From Rhodanobacter sp. DHB23 (GTDB taxonomy: Bacteria > Pseudomonadota > Gammaproteobacteria > Xanthomonadales > Rhodanobacteraceae), in NCBI RefSeq assembly GCF_014842975.1, contig NZ_JACYXK010000025.1, positions 62,001-126,000 on the forward strand: a stretch of DNA of 64,000 bases, given 5' to 3'. The notes under the pieces were generated by a model. It saw only the letters and a program-made list of their open reading frames with translations, was not told the DNA's origin and made no database searches. Positions 14,051 through 45,901 of the stretch are shown here, piece after piece. The number at the start of each line of letters is the position of its first letter. Within the stretch, counting starts at the first letter, position 1. Both the position numbers and the translations under genes were made by a program.

Positions 14051-14153
14051 TCCTCCCCCTGCTTGCAGGGGGAGGCCGGGAGGGGGTGCTCTTCAGTCGA
14101 TGGAAAAGCCAGCAGCACCCCACCCCAACCCTCCCCTGCAAGCAGGGGAGGGA
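14051..14153. repeat. Two-hairpin palindromic repeat, copy R2
   Basis: It lies between the VOC gene and ilvG inside the operon. The left hairpin is CTCCCCCTGCTTGCAGGGGGAG and the right one CCTCCCCTGCAAGCAGGGG, with a 55-bp unlike spacer. Its position between ilvG and the gene before it could alter RNA stability or expression within the operon. Confidence 0.85.
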
Positions 14154-20123: not shown

Positions 20124-21775
20124 GGATGGTTCTCCTTTTGCGCGCTTCCATTCGCGCGAAGATCAAAAGGCGGCCTTCCATGGCCGCACTCTTCAATAGA
20201 CTCTTCGGGCCGGCTCTGCGCGGCCTGCCGTTCGATGCGGTTGACGATGGCCAGCGCGGCCTGCGCGGCGGCTTCGACGATGTCGGTGCTGACGCCGTGG
20301 CCGCGCCAGTCGCGCTCGCCGTGGCGTGCGGTGAGCTGGGCTTGGCCCTGGGCGTCGCCGCCCGCGCTCACCGCGCGTACCTGGAATTCGGTGACGTCCA
20401 GCGTGTTGCCGGTGGCGCGTTCGATCGCGCGCAGCACCGCGTCCACCGGGCCGTCGCCGATCGCCGCTTCGCCGGTTTCGCGACCGTCGTCGTGGCGCAG
20501 CTTCACCGAGGCCGAGGCGCTGCCGCCCAGGTGCGTGTTGCTGCTCAGCTGCACCAGTCGCCATGGACCCAGCGCTTCCGGGTCCTGGCCCAGCGCGATG
20601 GCTTCCAGGTCCTCGTCGTGGATCTCGCGCTTCTTGTCGGCCAGGGTCTTGAAGCGCGCGAAGATCACGTCCATCGCGGCCTCGTCGGGGTCATGTCCCA
20701 ACACCTGCAGGCGCTGGCGCAGCGCGGCGCGGCCCGAGTGCTTGCCCAATACCAGCTTGGTCTCGGCAATGCCCACGTCCTGCGGCCGCATGATTTCGTA
20801 GGTGCCGCGGTGCTTGAGCATGCCGTGCTGGTGGATGCCCGACTCGTGCGCGAAGGCGTTGGCGCCCACGATGGCCTTGTTGCGCTGCACGTTCTGGCCG
20901 GTCAGTTCGCTGAGCAGGCGCGAGGCGGGGTAGAGCTTGCGGGTGTCGATGCGCGTGTCGGTGCCGAACCAGGTGCCGCGCACCTTCATCGCCATCACGA
21001 TTTCTTCCAGCGCCGCGTTGCCCGCGCGCTCGCCAATGCCGTTGATGGTGCATTCCACCTGGCGCGCGCCCGCGCTCACGGCGGCGAGGCTGTTGGCCAC
21101 ACCCAGGCCCAGGTCGTTGTGGCAGTGGCTGGAGAACACCACGTGCTGGCCGCGCTTCACGTTGGCGATCAGCCAGGCGAAGCGCTCGGCGATTTCCGTC
21201 GGCGTCATGTAGCCCACGGTGTCCGGCGCGTTCAGCGTGGTGGCGCCCGCGGCGGCGGCGGCGTCGAACACCTCGACCAGGAACTCCGGCTCGGTGCGCA
21301 TCGCGTCCTCGGCCGAGAATTCCACCTCGTGCGCCAGCTGCATGGCGCGTTCCACCGCGGTGACGGCGGTGTCCAGCACCTGCTGCTTGCTCATGTTGAG
21401 CTTGTGCTCGCGGTGCAGCGGGCTGGTGGAGAGGAACACGTGGATGCGCGAGCGCCGCGCCGATTCCAGCGCGCGGCCGGCGCTGTCGATGTCGCCCGGC
21501 ACGCAGCGTGCCAGCGCGCAGGCGGTGGTTTGCGTGAGCATGCCGGCGATTTGTGCGACTGCAGCGAAATCGTCCGGCGAAGCCTGCGGGAAACCCGCCT
21601 CGAGCACGTCCACGCCCAGCGCCTCCAGCATCTGCGCCATGCGCAGCTTGGCGCGCCGGTCCATCGAGAAGCCGGGCGTCTGCTCGCCGTCGCGCAGGGT
21701 GGTGTCGAAGATGCGCACGTGCTCGGCGGCTACGTCGCCGATCTCGCTCTGCGGGTCGTTCTGCTGGGTTTCCAT
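20120..21775 (-). CDS. leuA: 2-Isopropylmalate synthase
   Basis: This first enzyme of the leucine branch condenses acetyl-CoA with 2-oxoisovalerate. It begins [18 protein letters not shown], binds a divalent metal through [16 protein letters not shown], and carries the C-terminal allosteric domain ([32 protein letters not shown]). About 551 residues, with a 30-40-residue polar tail ([16 protein letters not shown]...) beyond the usual end. A GGAGCC site precedes the ATG. It is the first structural gene after the attenuator at 21813-21850. Confidence 0.97.
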
Positions 21776-21812: not shown

Positions 21813-21850
21813 CAAAAAACCCCGCTCCATTTCTGGTGCGGGGTTCTTCG
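21813..21850 (-). terminator. Intrinsic terminator acting as ilv-leu attenuator
   Basis: Read on the minus strand, AACCCCGCACC pairs with GGAGCGGGGTT-type sequence around a short A-rich loop, followed directly by TTTTTTG. It lies between the leader peptide stop (21891) and the leuA start (21775). This is the classic place for a transcription attenuator. Confidence 0.88.
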
Positions 21851-21890
21851 GGTGTTTTCAGGTTCTTTCTAGCTACCTGGACACATGCCC

Positions 21891-22028
21891 TCAGCCCGCA
21901 CCTCCGTTGGTAATAAGGAGTACGAGTACAAGGGCAAGAAGGAGCGTGCCGCGAAGCCGCAGCAGGCCGGCGACCGTCGGAGGACGGTTCAGGGCGGCGG
22001 TGCTGCGGTGGCTGTTGCGCTGCGACAT
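21891..22028 (-). CDS. ilv-leu operon leader peptide
   Basis: This is a 45-residue reading frame starting MSQRNSHRST and ending LITNGGAG, with the run LLLALVLVLLI encoded at 21912-21944. A dense run of Leu, Val and Ile codons just before an intrinsic terminator is the hallmark of a branched-chain attenuator peptide: stalling on uncharged Leu, Val or Ile tRNA would favour an antiterminator. The start at 22028 lies one to three bases from the inferred transcription start, so it may be translated from a leaderless transcript. An earlier in-frame ATG at 22052 lies inside the promoter and is less likely. Confidence 0.85.
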   Translation of the reverse strand: MSQRNSHRSTAALNRPPTVAGLLRLRGTLLLALVLVLLITNGGAG

Positions 22029-22035
22029 GTCATCG

Positions 22036-22064
22036 ACCGTACGCTTGCCCATCCGGCATGTCAA
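22036..22064 (-). promoter_or_regulatory. Promoter of the ilv-leu operon
   Basis: On the minus strand a perfect -35 box TTGACA (22064-22059) is followed after 17 bases by TACGGT (22041-22036). An A-tract GAAAAAAGTG lies just upstream of the -35 and could act as an UP element. Predicted initiation is near 22030, next to the leader ATG. Confidence 0.65.
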
Positions 22065-22110
22065 CACTTTTTTCATGACGATTTTTCAGAAGCGACCGGA
22101 GGCGTGGTTT

Positions 22111-39368: not shown

Positions 39369-40970
39369 ATGAACAACACGAGGACGATGCCGCGGCGGGC
39401 CGCACTGGGCCTGCTGGCCGCGGGACTGCTCGCGCTGGGTGCAACGCAGGCCGCGCCTGCCGCCGGCGACGACGTGCGGATCAAGGTCGACGCGAAGGCG
39501 CAGGGCACGCCGTTCCCGCACTACTGGGAACAGATGTTCGGCTCCGGTCGCGCCGCGCTGGCGCTGCGCGACGACTACCGCAAGGACCTGGTCGCGGTGA
39601 AACAGGCCACCGGCTTCGGGTACGTGCGCTTCCACGGCATCTTCGACGAGGACGTCGGCCTGTTCCAGCTCGGCAAGAACGGCCAGCCGTTCTACAACGC
39701 CGCCGACAAGTCGGACAAGGGCAGCGAGCCGGTCTACAACTTCTCCTACGTGGACCAGATCTACGACGGCCTGCTGGAGCGCGGCGTGCGGCCCTACGTG
39801 GAATTGAGCTTCATGCCGGACGACATGAGTGCCGATCCCAAGGCGATCCTGGACATGTGGTATCGCCCCAACATTGCGCCTCCGAAGGACTACGCGCTGT
39901 GGGACGGCATGATCCGCGCTTTTGCACAGCACCTGATCGCGCGCTACGGCATCGATGAAGTGTCGCAGTGGTACTTCGAGGTGTGGAACGAGCCCAACAT
40001 CGGATTCTGGGCCGGCAACCCCAAGATGGCCACCTACTACACGCTGTACGACCACACCGCGCGCGCGCTGAAGTCGGTGAGCCCGCGCCTGCGCGTGGGC
40101 GGCCCGGCCACCGCGCAGGCCGCGGAGGTCGCCGGCTTCCTCAAGCACGTGCATGACGCCAACGTGCCGGTGGATTTCGTCAGCACCCACGTCTACGGCG
40201 ACGACACCGCCGACAACGTGTTCCACACCAGCGAGAACATCCCGCGCAAGGACATGGTGTGCCGCGCGGTGGACAAGGTGCACAAGGAGGTGCTGGCCTC
40301 GCCGTACCCGAAGCTGCCCTTCATCATGAGCGAGTTCAACGCTTCCTACGCCAACCTGCCCAACGTCACCGACTCGGTGTACATGGGCCCGTGGCTGGCC
40401 AACACCATCCGCGCCTGCGCCGGCAAGGTGGACGCGATGAGCTACTGGTCGTTCTCCGACGTGTTCGAGGAAGGCGGCGTGGTGCGCACGCCGTTCTACG
40501 GCGGCTTCGGCCTGATCGCCGAGGACAACATCCGCAAGCCGGCCTACAACGCCTTCGCGATGCTGCACCGGCTGGGCGACGTGCAGCTGCCATCGTCCTC
40601 CGACTCCGCGCTGGTCACCCGCCGTGCCGACGGTACCCTGGCGCTGGCCCTGTGGAACTACGCGCCGCCGGTGGGCGACACCGCCGATTACACCGTCGGC
40701 CAGCCGAAGGGTGACGTGAAGCATTTCGAGGTCGACCTGTCCTCGTTGCCGCCGGGCGCCGCGGCGACCGTGTGGCGCCTGGATGAAACGCATGGCAACG
40801 TCATCGCCACGTTCGACCGGATGGGGCGCCCGGCCTTCCCCTCGCGCGAGCAGATCCGGCAGTTGCGCGAAGCTGGCCAGATGGCCGCGCCCGAGCAGGT
40901 CGCGCTGCACGGCGGCAAGCTCGTCCTCGACATCCCGCCGCAGGGCCTGGTGGTGGTCGAGGTGCATTGA
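39369..40970 (+). CDS. GH39 family glycosidase, copy 2
   Basis: The 533-residue exported protein has a signal peptide (RAALGLLAAGLLALGATQAAPA) preceded by twin arginines only weakly placed (MPRRAALG). It is a clear paralogue of the GH39 at 29790: FPHYWEQMFGSGRAAL, acid/base E208 in VWNEPN, nucleophile E322 in IMSEFN. It differs by an insertion after FDED (GKNGQPFYNAADKSDKGSE), absent from copy 1, close to the substrate-cleft side. GGGGAG precedes the start. Transcribed after the GH1 gene. Confidence 0.92.
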   Translation: MNNTRTMPRRAALGLLAAGLLALGATQAAPAAGDDVRIKVDAKAQGTPFPHYWEQMFGSGRAALALRDDYRKDLVAVKQATGFGYVRFHGIFDEDVGLFQLGKNGQPFYNAADKSDKGSEPVYNFSYVDQIYDGLLERGVRPYVELSFMPDDMSADPKAILDMWYRPNIAPPKDYALWDGMIRAFAQHLIARYGIDEVSQWYFEVWNEPNIGFWAGNPKMATYYTLYDHTARALKSVSPRLRVGGPATAQAAEVAGFLKHVHDANVPVDFVSTHVYGDDTADNVFHTSENIPRKDMVCRAVDKVHKEVLASPYPKLPFIMSEFNASYANLPNVTDSVYMGPWLANTIRACAGKVDAMSYWSFSDVFEEGGVVRTPFYGGFGLIAEDNIRKPAYNAFAMLHRLGDVQLPSSSDSALVTRRADGTLALALWNYAPPVGDTADYTVGQPKGDVKHFEVDLSSLPPGAAATVWRLDETHGNVIATFDRMGRPAFPSREQIRQLREAGQMAAPEQVALHGGKLVLDIPPQGLVVVEVH

Positions 40971-40987
40971 GCACTCATGCTTTCGAG

Positions 40988-41073
40988 CCCCTCTCCCGCT
41001 TGCGGGCACGCGGGGAGGCGCCATGGATGGCGCCGGCTTTGAGGAGCGAGGAGAGGGGTTGGGGAGAGGGGCT
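40988..41073. repeat. Palindromic repeat copy R6, near-identical inverted partner of R7
   Basis: About 86 bp beginning CCCCTCTCCCGCTTGCGGGC and containing GGCGCCATGGATGGCGCC. It matches the reverse complement of 42958-43044 at all but about two positions. The two copies flank thrC in opposite orientation. Confidence 0.88.
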
Positions 41074-41112
41074 CTTGCTTGTGCTGGGTTGTCGCAAGTT
41101 TCAAAGCGGTTT

Positions 41113-41459: not shown

Positions 41460-42770
41460 TCAATTCCGCTCGCGCAGCCACTGCTTCAACGCTTCATCAT
41501 CCGCTGCCATCGGCTCCGCGCTGGCCGAACGCTGCAGCATCGCCGCCAGCGCGGGCGGGACAGCGACGGCATGGCCGACCAGCGGTTCCACCACCTGCTC
41601 GAACTTCGCCGGATGCGCGGTGGCGACCACGGCCCACGGCCGGTCGTCGCTCCGTTCGCGCAGGCGGTCGAGCAGGTGCAGGGCGGTGGCGGTGTGCGGG
41701 CAGAACGTTTCGCCGTGTTCACTCGCATGCAGGGCGATGGTGCGGCGGATGGTGGCGTCGTCCACGCTCTCCGCATGCAGCGTGTGGCGCAGCGCCGCGT
41801 CGTCGCCGAAGGTCCAGTGCAGGCGCTCGAAGTTGCTGGGCGCGCCCACGTCCATCGCATTGGCCAGCGTGGCGATCGCTTCGCGCGGCGCGTAATCGTG
41901 GCCGGCGAAGAACTCGGGCAGGGTGGCGTTGGCATTGCAGGCCAGCCGGACCTCGCCCAACGGCAGGCCCATCGCACGCACCCACAGGCAGGCCATCGCG
42001 TTGCCGAGGTTGCCGGTGGGCACGAGGAAGTCCAGCGGCTCGCCGCGTTCGCGCCAGAAACCGAGCGCCGTGTGCGCGTAGTAGCTCATTTGCGGCAGCA
42101 GGCGGCCGAGGCTGATGCTGTTGGCGGAGCTGAGCGGCACGGCGCGTTGCAGCTCCGCGTCGTTCAGCGCGGCCTTCACCATGCGCTGGCAATCGTCGAA
42201 GCGCCCCGCCACGCGCAGCGCCTGCACGTTGCCGCCGAAGCAGCCCAGCTGGTGCGCCTGCCGCGGCGAGACCAGGCCATCGGGATACAGGATCGCCACG
42301 CGCACGCCCGGCTGGCGATGGAATGCCGCGCCCACCGCCGCGCCGGTGTCGCCCGAGGTGGCGACCAGGATGGTGAGCGGCCGGTCGTCCGCACGCGGCA
42401 GCCGGCGCAGGCAGGCGGCGAGGAAGCGCGCGCCCACGTCCTTGAACGCCGCCGTGGGGCCGTGGAACAACTCCAGCATCTGCGCGTCGCGGTACGGCAG
42501 CGGGCGCAGCGGCACCGCGAAATCCAGCGCCTCGGCGCAGATCGCCGGGAGTTCGCTGGCCAGCGCATCCCCCGCGAAGAACGGCGCGAGCAGGGTGGCG
42601 GCGGTGTCGGCCAGTGAGCCGCGTGGATCGAAGTCGGAAGGATCCAGCGTCGGCAAACGCTCCGGCACGTAGAGGCCGCCATCCGGCGCGAGGCCGGCGG
42701 CGATGGCTCCGCTCAATGTGGCGGCAGGCGCGTGCTTGCGCGTGCTGAGGTAGCGCAACGAATGACTCAT
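41460..42770 (-). CDS. thrC: Threonine synthase
   Basis: This PLP enzyme converts O-phosphohomoserine to threonine. The ATG at 42770 gives MSHSLRYLSTRKHAPAATLSGAI and 436 residues, typical of the gammaproteobacterial type. The catalytic lysine is in FHGPTAAFKDVGARF, and the phosphate loop is VATSGDTGAAVGAAFH. It is the last gene of the thr operon and is separated from thrB by a 289-bp gap with repeat R7. Confidence 0.97.
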   Translation of the reverse strand: MSHSLRYLSTRKHAPAATLSGAIAAGLAPDGGLYVPERLPTLDPSDFDPRGSLADTAATLLAPFFAGDALASELPAICAEALDFAVPLRPLPYRDAQMLELFHGPTAAFKDVGARFLAACLRRLPRADDRPLTILVATSGDTGAAVGAAFHRQPGVRVAILYPDGLVSPRQAHQLGCFGGNVQALRVAGRFDDCQRMVKAALNDAELQRAVPLSSANSISLGRLLPQMSYYAHTALGFWRERGEPLDFLVPTGNLGNAMACLWVRAMGLPLGEVRLACNANATLPEFFAGHDYAPREAIATLANAMDVGAPSNFERLHWTFGDDAALRHTLHAESVDDATIRRTIALHASEHGETFCPHTATALHLLDRLRERSDDRPWAVVATAHPAKFEQVVEPLVGHAVAVPPALAAMLQRSASAEPMAADDEALKQWLRERN

Positions 42771-42957
42771 GAGCCGCTCCCCGCATGCACAAGATTGTTG
42801 GCCTCGGTCCCCGGGTGCGGCGTGGCGTGGCGGCGGCGGTCGTGTCGCGGAGTGTTGTTCCAATGTCCCTGGAACAGCAGGCGTGCAATTCCGGCGTATC
42901 GAACCGGGCCATTCCTCCTGGTTGCTTCCTTGTTGCTTGCGAAGGCGCTGTAGCCAA

Positions 42958-43044
42958 AGCCCCTCTCCCCCGACCCCTCTCCTCGCTCCTCAAAGCCGGC
43001 GCCATCCATGGCGCCTCCCCGCGTGCCCGCAAGCGGGAGAGGGG
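42958..43044. repeat. Palindromic repeat copy R7 between thrB and thrC
   Basis: This is an inverted, near-identical copy of R6 (40988-41073), including the central GGCGCCATCCATGGCGCC. It lies in the thrB-thrC gap, where a strong RNA hairpin could affect thrC expression. Confidence 0.88.
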
Positions 43045-43059
43045 AGTGTGGCATGCGGC

Positions 43060-44058
43060 TCATGCGGCCACCTCGCCATCGACCAGGCACGCCGCGGGTC
43101 CATCGATGGGCGCGACGAACACGTCGCTCTCCAGGCCCGTTTCGGCAAACGCCGCCCGCATCGCGACCGAGGCCGCCTCTGCCTCCGCACGATGCTCGAA
43201 CCAGCCGAACACGCTGGGCCCGCCCCCGGAGATGCTCGCCCCCAGCGCGCGATGGTCGAGCGCTGCCTGCTTCACGCGGCCGAAGTTCGGCACCAGCGGC
43301 GCCCGCCGCGGTTCCACCAGCATGTCCTTCAGGCCATCGCGCACCAGCGCCGCGTCGCCACGGAAACAACCGGCGAGCAGCAACGAGAGGTTCGCGCTCT
43401 GCGCCACGAATTCGCCCAGCGCGTAGTGCCCCGCCAGCGCGGCGCGCGCCTTGCGCGTCTCCAGCACGAAGTGCGGATGCACCAGCGCGCAATGCCAGCC
43501 GGCCGGCACCGGGATGCGCAGCACGCGGTCGTGTGTGGCCAGCGCCAGGCCGCCGAGCAGTTGCGGCCCCACGTTGTCGCCGTGGCGGCCGCCGCTGGCC
43601 GCCGCCTCGCCGTCCATCGCGAAGCCGTACAGCGCCTCGTGCGGCAGCGGCTGCTCCAGCAACGCGTTCGCCGCCACCAGCGCGGCCACGCAGGAGGCGG
43701 CCGAGCCGGCCATGCCCGAACCCAGCGCGATGCCCTTGTGCAGCACCACTTCGAAGCCGTGGCGCAGGCCCAGCGCCTTGCGCAGCGCGAGCAGGGCGAC
43801 GCCGGCGGTGTTGCGCTGCGCGTCCAGCGGCAGGTCCTGGGTGGTGCCGTGGATCGCCGCGATGCGCACGACGGGTTCGTCGATGCGGCGCACCTCGGCG
43901 CGGTCGCCGGCGCCGGCCATGCTATGGCCGAGGATGTCGAAGCCCACGCCGACGTTGCCGACGCAGGCGGGCGCGAACGCGACGGCGCGGACACGGCGGG
44001 GAGCGGGGCGGGACGACGAGGTCTTCATGGGTTCCTGCAACAGGGTAGGGGCGTTCAT
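43060..44058 (-). CDS. thrB: Homoserine kinase
   Basis: This GHMP-family kinase phosphorylates homoserine. The motifs [21 protein letters not shown], the ATP loop [20 protein letters not shown] and the C-terminal [14 protein letters not shown] are canonical. The 332-residue form starts at 44058 and overlaps the hom stop by four bases; an internal ATG at 44028 (MKTSSSRP) is possible but the overlap favours the longer form. Confidence 0.96.
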
Positions 44059-45209
44059 GCGCGCGGCTCCAGCGATTCGGCGATCCGCAGCAGGTCGGCG
44101 AACACGCCGGCCGCGGTCACTTCCGGCCCGGCGCCGGGTCCTTGCACGAGCATGGGATTGTCGCAGTAACGGCGCGTGCGGAACTGCACCACGTTGTCGG
44201 TGAGCCGTGTGTGCGCGAACGGGTGCGCCACGGGCAGCACCGCCAGCCGCACGCTGGCGCGACCTTTGCGGTCGAGGCTGGCGACGTGGCGCAGCACGCC
44301 GCCGCGGGTGTGCGCCTCGGCGAGCCTAGCGGCCATCGGCGCGTCGAGTTCGTGCAGGCGCTGCATGAACTCGTCCGCGGGCAACCCGGCCAGCGCGGGC
44401 GGCACCAGGCTCTCCACCGCCACCTGTTCCAGCGACAGCGGCCAGCCGGCCTCGCGCGCGAGGATCACCAGCTTGCGCGCCACGTCGAGGCCGGACAGGT
44501 CCTCGCGCGGATCGGGCTCGGTGTAGCCCAGCGCATGCGCCTCGCGCACCAGCGCGGAAAACGGCTGCTGGCCGTCGTGGCGGTTGCACAGCCAGGCCAG
44601 CGTGCCGGAGAACATGCCTTCCACCGCCAGCAGTTCGTCGCCGGTGTCGAGCAGGTCGCGCAGGGTCTGCACCACCGGCAGGCCGGCGCAGACGGTGGCC
44701 TCGTAGTGGAAGCGCGCGCCGTCGGCGCAGGCGGCGCGGATCGCGCGCCAGCGTTCCAGCGGTCCGCTGCCGGCCAGTTTGTTCGGCGTCACCACGTGCA
44801 GCCCGGCGGCCAGCCAGCGCGGATAGTGCGCGGCCACCGCTTCGCTGGCGCTGCAGTCGACCAGCAGGGCGTGCCGATCACCCATGCCGTGCACGTGCGC
44901 GGCGAAGACGTCGAGGTCGCTGGGGCGCCAGGTCTGCGCACCGGCATGGCGGGCGTTGAGCTCGGCGTCGTCGCAATCCAGCCACATGCGCTGGCGGGCC
45001 ACCACGCCGCAGAGTTTCAGGTCCAGCGCGTGGTCCCGCGACAGCCGCGGCTGCGCCGTGCGCAGCTGGTCCAGCAGTGCGCCGCCGACCCGGCCGGGGC
45101 CGATCAGGCCCACCGCCAGCGTGCGCCGGCGCGCGGTTCGCGCGGGCAGCGCGAAGGCGCGCGGCGGCAGGTTCGGATGTTTGGCGAGCGGCGAAGCGCA
45201 GATGTTCAC
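44055..45209 (-). CDS. hom: Homoserine dehydrogenase, without aspartokinase domain
   Basis: This NAD(P)-dependent enzyme makes homoserine from aspartate semialdehyde. It has a Rossmann motif [17 protein letters not shown] near residue 35, the catalytic region [24 protein letters not shown], and [20 protein letters not shown], ending [21 protein letters not shown]. It resembles the C-terminal half of ThrA/MetL bifunctional enzymes, but the aspartokinase half is missing and only a 30-residue basic extension precedes the Rossmann fold. The start is a GTG at 45209 with GGAGG five bases before it; this site is held in the hairpin at 45213-45229. It is the first gene of hom-thrB-thrC. Confidence 0.94.
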
Positions 45210-45212
45210 AGT

Positions 45213-45229
45213 GACCTCCGGTGGAGGTC
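45213..45229 (-). promoter_or_regulatory. Hairpin covering the hom ribosome binding site
   Basis: On the RNA strand GACCTCC pairs perfectly with GGAGGTC over a three-base loop, enclosing the GGAGG that serves the hom GTG start. Opening of this stem would be needed for translation, so it may be part of leader-controlled expression or simply a translation brake. Confidence 0.6.
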
Positions 45230-45258
45230 CCGTCTCGCTAGGCGGTGTCGGTCGCGCC

Positions 45259-45283
45259 GGCCCGCCTCTTCGAGGGCGGGACC
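45259..45283 (-). terminator. GC-rich hairpin in the thr leader, attenuator candidate
   Basis: GGTCCCGCC and GGCGGGCC form a strong stem around CTCGAAGA, 14 bases after the leader peptide stop. No U-tract follows, so it may need a factor to terminate or may act as one of the alternative leader structures. Confidence 0.5.
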
Positions 45284-45296
45284 GTTGCGTAAAGGG

Positions 45297-45455
45297 TTAC
45301 TCGCGCACGGACACCCACCCGGAACCGGTGGTACCGGTACCGGTGGTAATAATCGTGGCGATGGCGGTTGCGGCGATGCCGCCCGCGGCCAGCAGCGTCC
45401 GTCCGGCGTTGACCGGGGTCGGGAGCATGCGTGCTGGTGCGAAGGATGGCGACAT
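45297..45455 (-). CDS. thrL: Threonine operon leader peptide
   Basis: This 52-residue reading frame begins MSPSFAPARM and contains the run ATAIATIITTGTGTTG, rich in threonine and isoleucine codons as in the enterobacterial thr leader. It stops 88 bp before hom, and two hairpins lie between. Ribosome stalling for lack of Thr or Ile tRNA charging would change the fold of the leader. The ATG at 45455 lies within a few bases of the inferred transcription start. It is too short for most gene finders. Confidence 0.85.
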   Translation of the reverse strand: MSPSFAPARMLPTPVNAGRTLLAAGGIAATAIATIITTGTGTTGSGWVSVRE

Positions 45456-45461
45456 GGATCC

Positions 45462-45492
45462 GAGCCTAGATGGGCGCTTGCGCGGATGTCAA
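45462..45492 (-). promoter_or_regulatory. Promoter of the thr operon
   Basis: On the minus strand TTGACA (45492-45487) is followed after 18 bases by TAGGCT. An A-tract (CCAAAAAACC) lies just upstream of the -35 box, as before the ilv-leu promoter. Initiation would be next to the thrL ATG. Confidence 0.6.
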
Positions 45493-45517
45493 CAGGTTTT
45501 TTGGAATAAGCATGGGC

Positions 45518-45541
45518 GGCCGTATGGACGTCCAGACGGCC
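45518..45541. promoter_or_regulatory. 24-bp near-perfect palindrome upstream of the thr operon
   Basis: GGCCGTATGGACGTCCAGACGGCC is its own reverse complement apart from one symmetric pair. It can also be read as three contiguous 8-mers of the type GGACGTCC, like arrays of MetJ boxes (AGACGTCT). It shares CGTATGGACG with the site upstream of ilv-leu at 22111-22140. It lies 26 bp upstream of the -35 box. Confidence 0.6.
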
Positions 45542-45699
45542 ACTTGGTTTACGAGTTCGCGAACGCCCATGCGGTTGGTCGCCTGGATCGATGGTGCGTG
45601 GCGAGCGTGCCGGCATGCCGGTCGGCACCATGCCACCGGTCGGATGTGATCCCTCCCGGATGGCCTGATTGGCGTCGGGTCCCGGTCGCGCAATGTCTG

Positions 45700-45826
45700 T
45701 CTCCCTCCCCTGCGTGCAGGGGAGGGCTGGGGTGGGGTCAGGCTCTTGCGAAAGCCATCCATGAGCGTCTTGCGCAAGGTTTCACCCCCTCCCAGCCTCC
45801 CCCTGCAAGCAAGGGGAGGAGCAAAT
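45700..45826. repeat. Two-hairpin palindromic repeat, copy R8
   Basis: Arms are CTCCCTCCCCTGCGTGCAGGGGAGGG and CTCCCCCTGCAAGCAAGGGGAG, with a spacer containing the inverted pair CTTGCG...CGCAAG. It lies between the divergent-side end of the S41 peptidase gene and the thr promoter. With thrL, the promoter and the 24-bp palindrome, it accounts for most of the 692-bp region 45210-45901. Confidence 0.85.
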
Positions 45827-45901
45827 CGGCTCACGGCTGGACTCGACGCCAATCAGGCCCGGATGGCGGCTGCCGGCCGTCGTTGCCCGCATCCGGGGTG
45901 G

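Follow-up and report, generated by a model that had tools for sequence, protein, structure and literature searches.

The window analysed here, a stretch of 64,000 nucleotides from Rhodanobacter sp. DHB23, carries on its minus strand a hom gene for homoserine dehydrogenase (44055–45209, with a GTG start codon at 45209), the name of which is assumed from its position and sequence features. On the same grounds, the ORFs at 43060–44058 and 41460–42770 on this strand are taken to be thrB-like (homoserine kinase) and thrC-like (threonine synthase), respectively, the start of the latter being presumed as well. Judging from the ORF list, where their translations share SPTPLLAPQSRRHPWRLPACPQAGEG-like text, two intergenic stretches at about 40900–41100 and 42900–43050 look like a dispersed GC-rich repeat. 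Upstream of hom on the minus strand lies thrL (45297–45455), an ORF of 52 codons and a stop codon encoding the leader peptide MSPSFAPARMLPTPVNAGRTLLAAGGIAATAIATIITTGTGTTGSGWVSVRE of 52 amino acids, whose ATG at 45455 coincides with the predicted transcription start. It contains a run of Thr/Ile control codons (R0, 45327–45368), for which the relatives are alike, and a tail of SGWVSVRE codons (R1, 45300–45323). Seven nucleotides upstream of the thrL ATG there is a promoter-like pair (45463–45492) made up of TTGACA (45492–45487), an 18-nt spacer and TAGGCT (45468–45463), the spacing of which is kept in relatives.

The region between thrL and hom is occupied by strands that could pair in several ways. 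The hub strand R2 (ACGCAACGGTCCCGCCCTCG, 45271–45290) has R1, R3 and R4 as possible partners; R1:R2 would join 45320–45314 to 45280–45274, and R2:R4 would join 45283–45277 to 45232–45226. R3 (AAGAGGCGGGCCGG, 45257–45270) is the second arm of a GC hairpin at 45284–45258, while R4 (CCGACACCGCC...CGAGACGGGACCTCC, 45223–45251) contains in its 3′ part the strand complementary to the Shine-Dalgarno sequence (SD) of hom. This anti-SD strand forms with the SD strand R5 (45219–45213) the SD-hiding hairpin GACCTCC-ACC-GGAGGTC (45213–45229), which has a 7-bp stem and a 3-nt loop. Alternatively, R2 and R3 together can pair with R4 into a long hairpin (45226–45283; GGTCCCG...CGGGACC plus inner stems), which leaves the SD free and is mutually exclusive with both short hairpins. 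The first-pass annotation had named a Thr/Ile-rich leader before hom, a GC hairpin after it that lacks a U-tract, and a perfect stem GACCTCC/GGAGGTC over the hom SD. All three are borne out: its ATAIATIITTGTGTTG lies inside the leader peptide, no T-run stands behind the GC hairpin, and the stem shows compensating changes in related leaders. New with respect to that annotation are the promoter-like pair, which lay outside its range, the long pairing, and the pairing between the end of the leader ORF and the first arm of the hairpin.

A search for Hom in 117 genomes of the window's family, Rhodanobacteraceae, gave matches in 114 genomes covering all 26 genera. Upstream DNA was taken from 89 of these 114 genomes, those with only a distant hom copy (~50% identity) being left out; 38 loci of the family sample are named, mostly from Rhodanobacter, Dyella and Frateuria. 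A Thr/Ile-rich ORF stands directly upstream of a stand-alone hom in 104 of the 128 loci with a hom match, giving 93 distinct sequences that typically end in SGWVSVRE or a variant of it. Moreover, where aspartate kinase and homoserine dehydrogenase are fused (22 loci), the kinase part is preceded by a comparable leader, often with the tail VVRRVVRE. Left out of the leader set were L103, whose stretch ended too early, and L127, an additional hom copy with no convincing leader. Altogether, the leader is present in 25 of the 26 sampled genera of the family. In an order-level survey, hom matches were found in 116 of 121 genomes and 40 stretches were taken. The leader recurs in 14 of the 15 loci of a sister family (f2), which from its kinship we take to be Xanthomonadaceae, with tails such as VRPVVFV; the exception, L164, showed no leader in the stretch taken. 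Among 24 loci of the families f3–f12 of the order, some stretches of which may miss the leader, a convincing Thr-rich leader was seen only in L173, L192 and L199. In two of these, L173 and L199 (family f4), the ATG of the Thr-rich leader ORF follows TTGAC or TTGCC at a distance of 36 nt. The 93 distinct stand-alone leaders and the 22 fused-thrA leaders make up a set of 115, which becomes 130 with another 15 (14 of family f2 and L198).

In the set of 115, the stop codon of thrL is followed by the start of the enzyme gene after 82–111 nt (median 92). The loci were chosen for their Thr/Ile content, and in 114 of the 115 the 14 codons that end with the last Thr include at least five for Thr. The last Thr codon is separated from the stop by nine codons in 82 loci and by ten in 19; this spacing is almost constant, as would suit a ribosome that acts on R1. 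In most stand-alone hom leaders (L006–L095), the N-terminal half of the ~50-residue peptide is conserved too (about MSPLSAPARMxxAPVxxGR), more than an attenuator peptide would need.

A simple scan of 44900–45900 listed no promoter, and TAGGCT matches TATAAT at only three of six letters, so the promoter call relies on conservation in the relatives. There, 129 of 130 loci (the exception is L112) have the thrL ATG 35–38 nt downstream of the first T of TTGAC, and the full pattern TTGACN-N17/18-TANNNT followed by the ATG after 6–8 nt is found in 92 of the 93 distinct stand-alone loci. Apart from L112, TTGAC is similarly placed in the fused loci, most of which differ in the -10 sequence. An SD-like 4-mer precedes the thrL ATG in 25 of 129 loci, and in all six cases listed it is the AAGG of the -10 box. 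Because this conserved spacing puts the ATG at the expected start of transcription, the predicted thrL message is probably leaderless.

Since many foldings look good in such GC-rich RNA, comparative tests were applied to the pairings. The swap test sets the duplex energy of two segments that belong to the same genome against the energies obtained after exchanging segments between genera; the input was the 103 of 130 loci that have a genus label, and kinship was handled solely by taking one representative per genus. Up to three loci per genus entered the synonymous-codon test and up to two the shuffle test. The mean z values of the swap test with 25 and 33 genera were -4.7 and -6.9 for R1:R2, -5.9 and -7.9 for R2:R3, and -4.1 and -5.3 for R2:R4, respectively. 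For R4:R5 they were -2.8 and -1.8 (worst draw, -0.6), and -2.4 for R4a:R5, where R4a is the 15-nt anti-SD strand; this covariation is weak partly because the letters of the SD can hardly vary. The long pairing R2R3:R4 reached -7.5 with 33 genera, and the Thr run paired with R1 gave -4.4, a signal that is partly suspect because the two segments nearly touch. The eleven control pairings ranged from -0.4 to +2.3 (33 genera). Within the 15 closest genera, where the sequence hardly varies and the signals are weak for this reason, the values were -2.0 for R2:R4, -1.4 for R2:R3, -1.5 for R4a:R5 and +0.3 for R1:R2.

The codon choice of thrL favours R1:R2 throughout the 33 genera (mean z -1.9). Towards R3 (17 of 33 genera), R4 (18 of 33) and R5 (18 of 33) it shows no preference, and R4a (z -0.6) and the Thr run (z -1.3) are slightly favoured, in 25 and 29 of 33 genera, respectively. 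The segment shuffles agree with the swap test: z fell below -1 for R2:R3 in 33 of 33 genera, for R4a:R5 in 31, and for R1:R2 and R2:R4a in 28 each, compared with 11 for R3:R4a, 6 for R1:R4a and 5 for R1:R3, which served as controls. Compensating variants are quoted from the 16 commonest of the 30–54 pair variants per helix: for R1:R2, GGGTGGG:CCCGCCC is listed in the window's genus and four others and GGTGCGG:CCGCACC in eight more, and for R2:R4, GGTCCCG:CGGGACC, GGCCCCG:CGGGGCC, GGCTCCG:CGGAGCC and GGCCCGC:GCGGGCC are listed. Poor matches also occur, namely runs of three to four pairs for R2:R4 in the genera g9, g12 and g22 and of three pairs for R4:R5 in g3 and g9. As general antisequestors, R1:R4 and R3:R4a found no support in the swap, shuffle or codon tests, yet R1:R4 is strong in some species. 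Indels and near-invariance meant that little could be learned from column-wise covariation in an alignment (A1) of 79 sequences, and the swap test was used in its place. The comparison thus supports four pairings, R1:R2, R2:R3, R2:R4 and, more weakly, R4:R5, and the arrangement of the leader is not a product of chance. From these pairings it follows that two folds would compete, R2:R3 together with the SD-hiding hairpin on one side and one long, SD-free hairpin on the other, and that the tail of the leader ORF would compete for R2.

An intrinsic terminator at this leader can be rejected. The simple scan found no terminator-like site in 44900–45900, and the densest 8-nt window after the R2:R3 hairpin has 0–2 T in 113 of 130 loci, three in 12 and four in five. 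No 8-nt window after this hairpin reaches five T in any of the 130 loci, and near the hom or thrA start four of 130 do so. A known Rfam element was rejected as well: the whole window gave no match at the gathering threshold, and the covariance model of the thr leader (RF00506, which we take to be the family of the Escherichia coli thr operon attenuator, thrL) gave no match at E ≤ 1 in seven loci.

The SD of hom is unusually well hidden, for freeing it locally costs 11.4 kcal/mol, compared with a mean of 4.6 kcal/mol for the 19 window genes with a guessable SD start, hom itself being one of them and ranking second. Another guessed gene start, at 14123 on the minus strand, equals hom in this respect, with 11.6 kcal/mol needed to free its SD. 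Over the 130 leaders the mean cost is 7.7 kcal/mol. In the window, the fold with the two short hairpins (R2:R3 and R4:R5) has -41.6 kcal/mol, versus -34.7 kcal/mol for the long hairpin. At equilibrium the SD is mostly hidden at every ribosome position; it is more than half unpaired in 2–4% of 93 loci, and the cost of freeing it averages 5.9–6.5 kcal/mol at each of four ribosome positions. Freeing is slightly easier with the ribosome at the stop codon than in the middle of the run in 20 of 33 genera (the opposite holds in six; 6.0 versus 10.5 kcal/mol in the window), which is the wrong sign for induction by starvation. Release of the SD by equilibrium folding is thus unsupported; once R5 exists, most loci hide the SD in all states, so that control, if any, must be kinetic.

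Estimates for the moments before R5 is made are mixed. With a ribosome at the end of thrL, 82% of 33 genera then form the long hairpin (more than five R2:R4 pairs); with the ribosome past the run about 80% do so, and without a ribosome 48%. This hairpin is least frequent (21–24%) with the ribosome four to five codons before the last Thr codon, where R1:R2 is maximal. At face value, a long hairpin that is rarest mid-run and commonest at the end of thrL has the wrong sign for a switch turned on by starvation. On the other side, a crude estimate of the barrier for closing the SD hairpin gives 23.7 kcal/mol for the window RNA with a mid-run stall versus 14.4 kcal/mol with the ribosome at the stop, and closing is slower with the mid-run stall in 21 of 33 genera, which favours starvation-on, and faster in 11. 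The highest mean closing barrier of all, 11.0 kcal/mol over 33 genera, belongs to the state without a ribosome.

Considering the conserved codon run, the SD stem, the co-varying alternative pairings and the missing U-tract, we regard it as rather probable that the leader is a ribosome-sensed Thr/Ile attenuator whose output is the initiation of hom translation through these pairings; this estimate refers to the switch as such and leaves its sign aside. The first-pass annotation had suggested that translation of the leader is coupled to hom initiation in place of a plain terminator, and the comparative part of this suggestion stands, whereas the folding calculations do not lend it the same support, with the SD mostly hidden at equilibrium wherever the ribosome sits and the kinetic estimates pointing both ways. 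In the mechanism that we propose, a leaderless thrL would be translated from the very 5′ end of the RNA, and the position of the ribosome on the Thr/Ile run and R1 would decide whether R2 is held by R1, folded with R3 or joined to R4. With R2 folded with R3 or held by R1, the anti-SD strand R4 would close on the SD and hom would be off; with R2 and R3 paired with R4, the SD would stay open and hom would be on. The choice between the folds would presumably be made during transcription, and starvation would be expected to open the SD, a direction taken from physiology.

The same translational switch could also work with the sign of the E. coli attenuator, a reading that overlaps with the preferred one and that we consider possible though somewhat unlikely. 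Here a mid-run stall would let R1 pair with R2 and also, in certain species, with the anti-SD strand; the on state would be this pairing instead of the long hairpin. The maximal R1:R2 pairing upon a mid-run stall would fit, as would the resemblance of the arms to those of E. coli; in addition, with R1 free, the minimum-energy folds of L046 and L021 pair R1 with R4 and free most of the SD, and, as long as R5 has yet to be made, the window RNA likewise shows about 10 pairs between R1 and R4. However, R1:R4 shows no covariation, codon choice across the genera lends it a slight preference at best, and at equilibrium R4 continues for the most part to close on the SD even when R2 is mostly out of the fold (offset +36). 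That the SD hairpin is not regulated at all and simply sets a low level of hom translation, the leader acting otherwise or being a relic, would agree with an SD mostly hidden in all computed ribosome states and with the one other window gene, of 19, that has an equally costly SD. It would leave the conserved codon run, the nine-codon spacing from the last Thr to the stop and the co-varying alternative pairings without an explanation, and we judge it very improbable.

A further alternative keeps the control in transcription: R2:R3 or the long hairpin would pause RNA polymerase, and Rho or another factor would end the transcript when hom is untranslated, the SD hairpin only adding polarity. In its favour, R1:R2 and R2:R3 correspond to the arms of the thr leader of E. 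coli K-12 (L200), which are GGTGCGGGCTGA, GCCCGCACC and GTGCGGGC, the first two being like those of the fused-thrA relatives and the third (R3) being followed by nine T, and a hairpin followed by eight T is kept in L192 from another family of the order. Against it stand the lack of a T-rich tract after the hairpin throughout the 130 loci and the fact that the SD stem and R2:R4 would have no clear reason to co-vary, so that this alternative appears unlikely. Rho-dependent or pausing effects may nevertheless occur at the U-less hairpin, and we infer that translation, not Rho termination, carries most of the control in the translational switch preferred here.

The same genome also has a leu leader region (21813–22079, minus strand) before leuA (20240–21718), with a leader ORF (21891–22028) encoding the 45-residue peptide MSQRNSHRSTAALNRPPTVAGLLRLRGTLLLALVLVLLITNGGAG. 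Its layout, TTGACA-N17-TACGGT-N7-ATG, is like that of the thr leader, and it is perhaps leaderless too; the two also share a codon run, and the leu tail contains GGTGCGGGCTGA. In contrast to the thr leader, its terminator-like hairpin (21845–21813) is followed by TTTTTT, as in a classical transcription attenuator, which suggests that the genome uses a terminator attenuator elsewhere. The simple scan missed this hairpin, the loop of which looks longer than the scan allows, and a quick scan around hisG and trpE of the genome gave no obvious leader. Within the order that has the U-less form, L192 (family f9) carries a classical-looking thr leader, MMIFNRRTALIITTTITTVTRREVMR, whose hairpin is followed by eight T.

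The leader resembles the E. coli thr attenuator in having a Thr/Ile-rich leader peptide before thr genes and a tail able to pair with the leading arm of a GC hairpin (seen in eight genera here as GGTGCGG:CCGCACC and in E. coli as GGTGCGGGC:GCCCGCACC), and it differs in the missing T-run, the extra SD-hiding stem, the R2:R4 pairing and the start codon at the predicted +1. In translational attenuators of the ermC/cat type and in the rtpA leader of Bacillus subtilis, the position of the ribosome on a leader ORF decides whether the downstream SD is hidden. A leader ORF is proposed to govern the hiding of a downstream SD here as well, but sensing would rely on Thr/Ile codons in the leader of a biosynthetic operon, and the hub strand has three alternative partners. 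Amino-acid examples with the SD inside a switching structure are the LEU element and the translational T-boxes of Actinobacteria (PMC1262725); these likewise sense through a leader peptide or tRNA upstream of amino-acid genes, but with another fold (pseudoknot or T-box), in another phylum, and for leucine or ileS. A precedent for a leaderless leader peptide is trpL of Sinorhizobium meliloti, the leader RNA of which starts with the ATG codon (PMC7298713); it is a transcription attenuator for tryptophan, unlike the switch proposed here. In 2010, a change between termination and hiding of the ribosome-binding site was called a realistic hypothesis, and no terminator hairpin that also hides such a site was reported to have been demonstrated by experiment (PMC2965389). 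Judged by titles and the beginnings of abstracts, no description of such a switch was found in the literature; Vitreschak et al. 2004 (FEMS Microbiol Lett) may have predicted a thr attenuator of this group. Translational attenuators are already known, and the form seen here is likely a threonine attenuator with translation initiation as its output.

As to the origin of the system, the chances appear evenly balanced that a threonine terminator-attenuator lost its U-tract and was rewired, in two families of one order (Rhodanobacteraceae and the presumed Xanthomonadaceae), into a leaderless, ribosome-sensed translational switch, the hub strand of which would pick the leader tail, a relic terminator arm or the anti-SD strand; the U-less form would then presumably be the derived one. 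If this is true, nature would here provide a case of attenuation that passed from transcription to translation; a classical-looking form would persist in L192, from another family of the order, and in the leu leader of this genome. Both forms of one sensor apparently exist within a single order, and the steps of a change from termination to initiation could therefore be compared and tested. Furthermore, it suggests how the flux to threonine is set in this group of bacteria, whose leader peptides may be leaderless.
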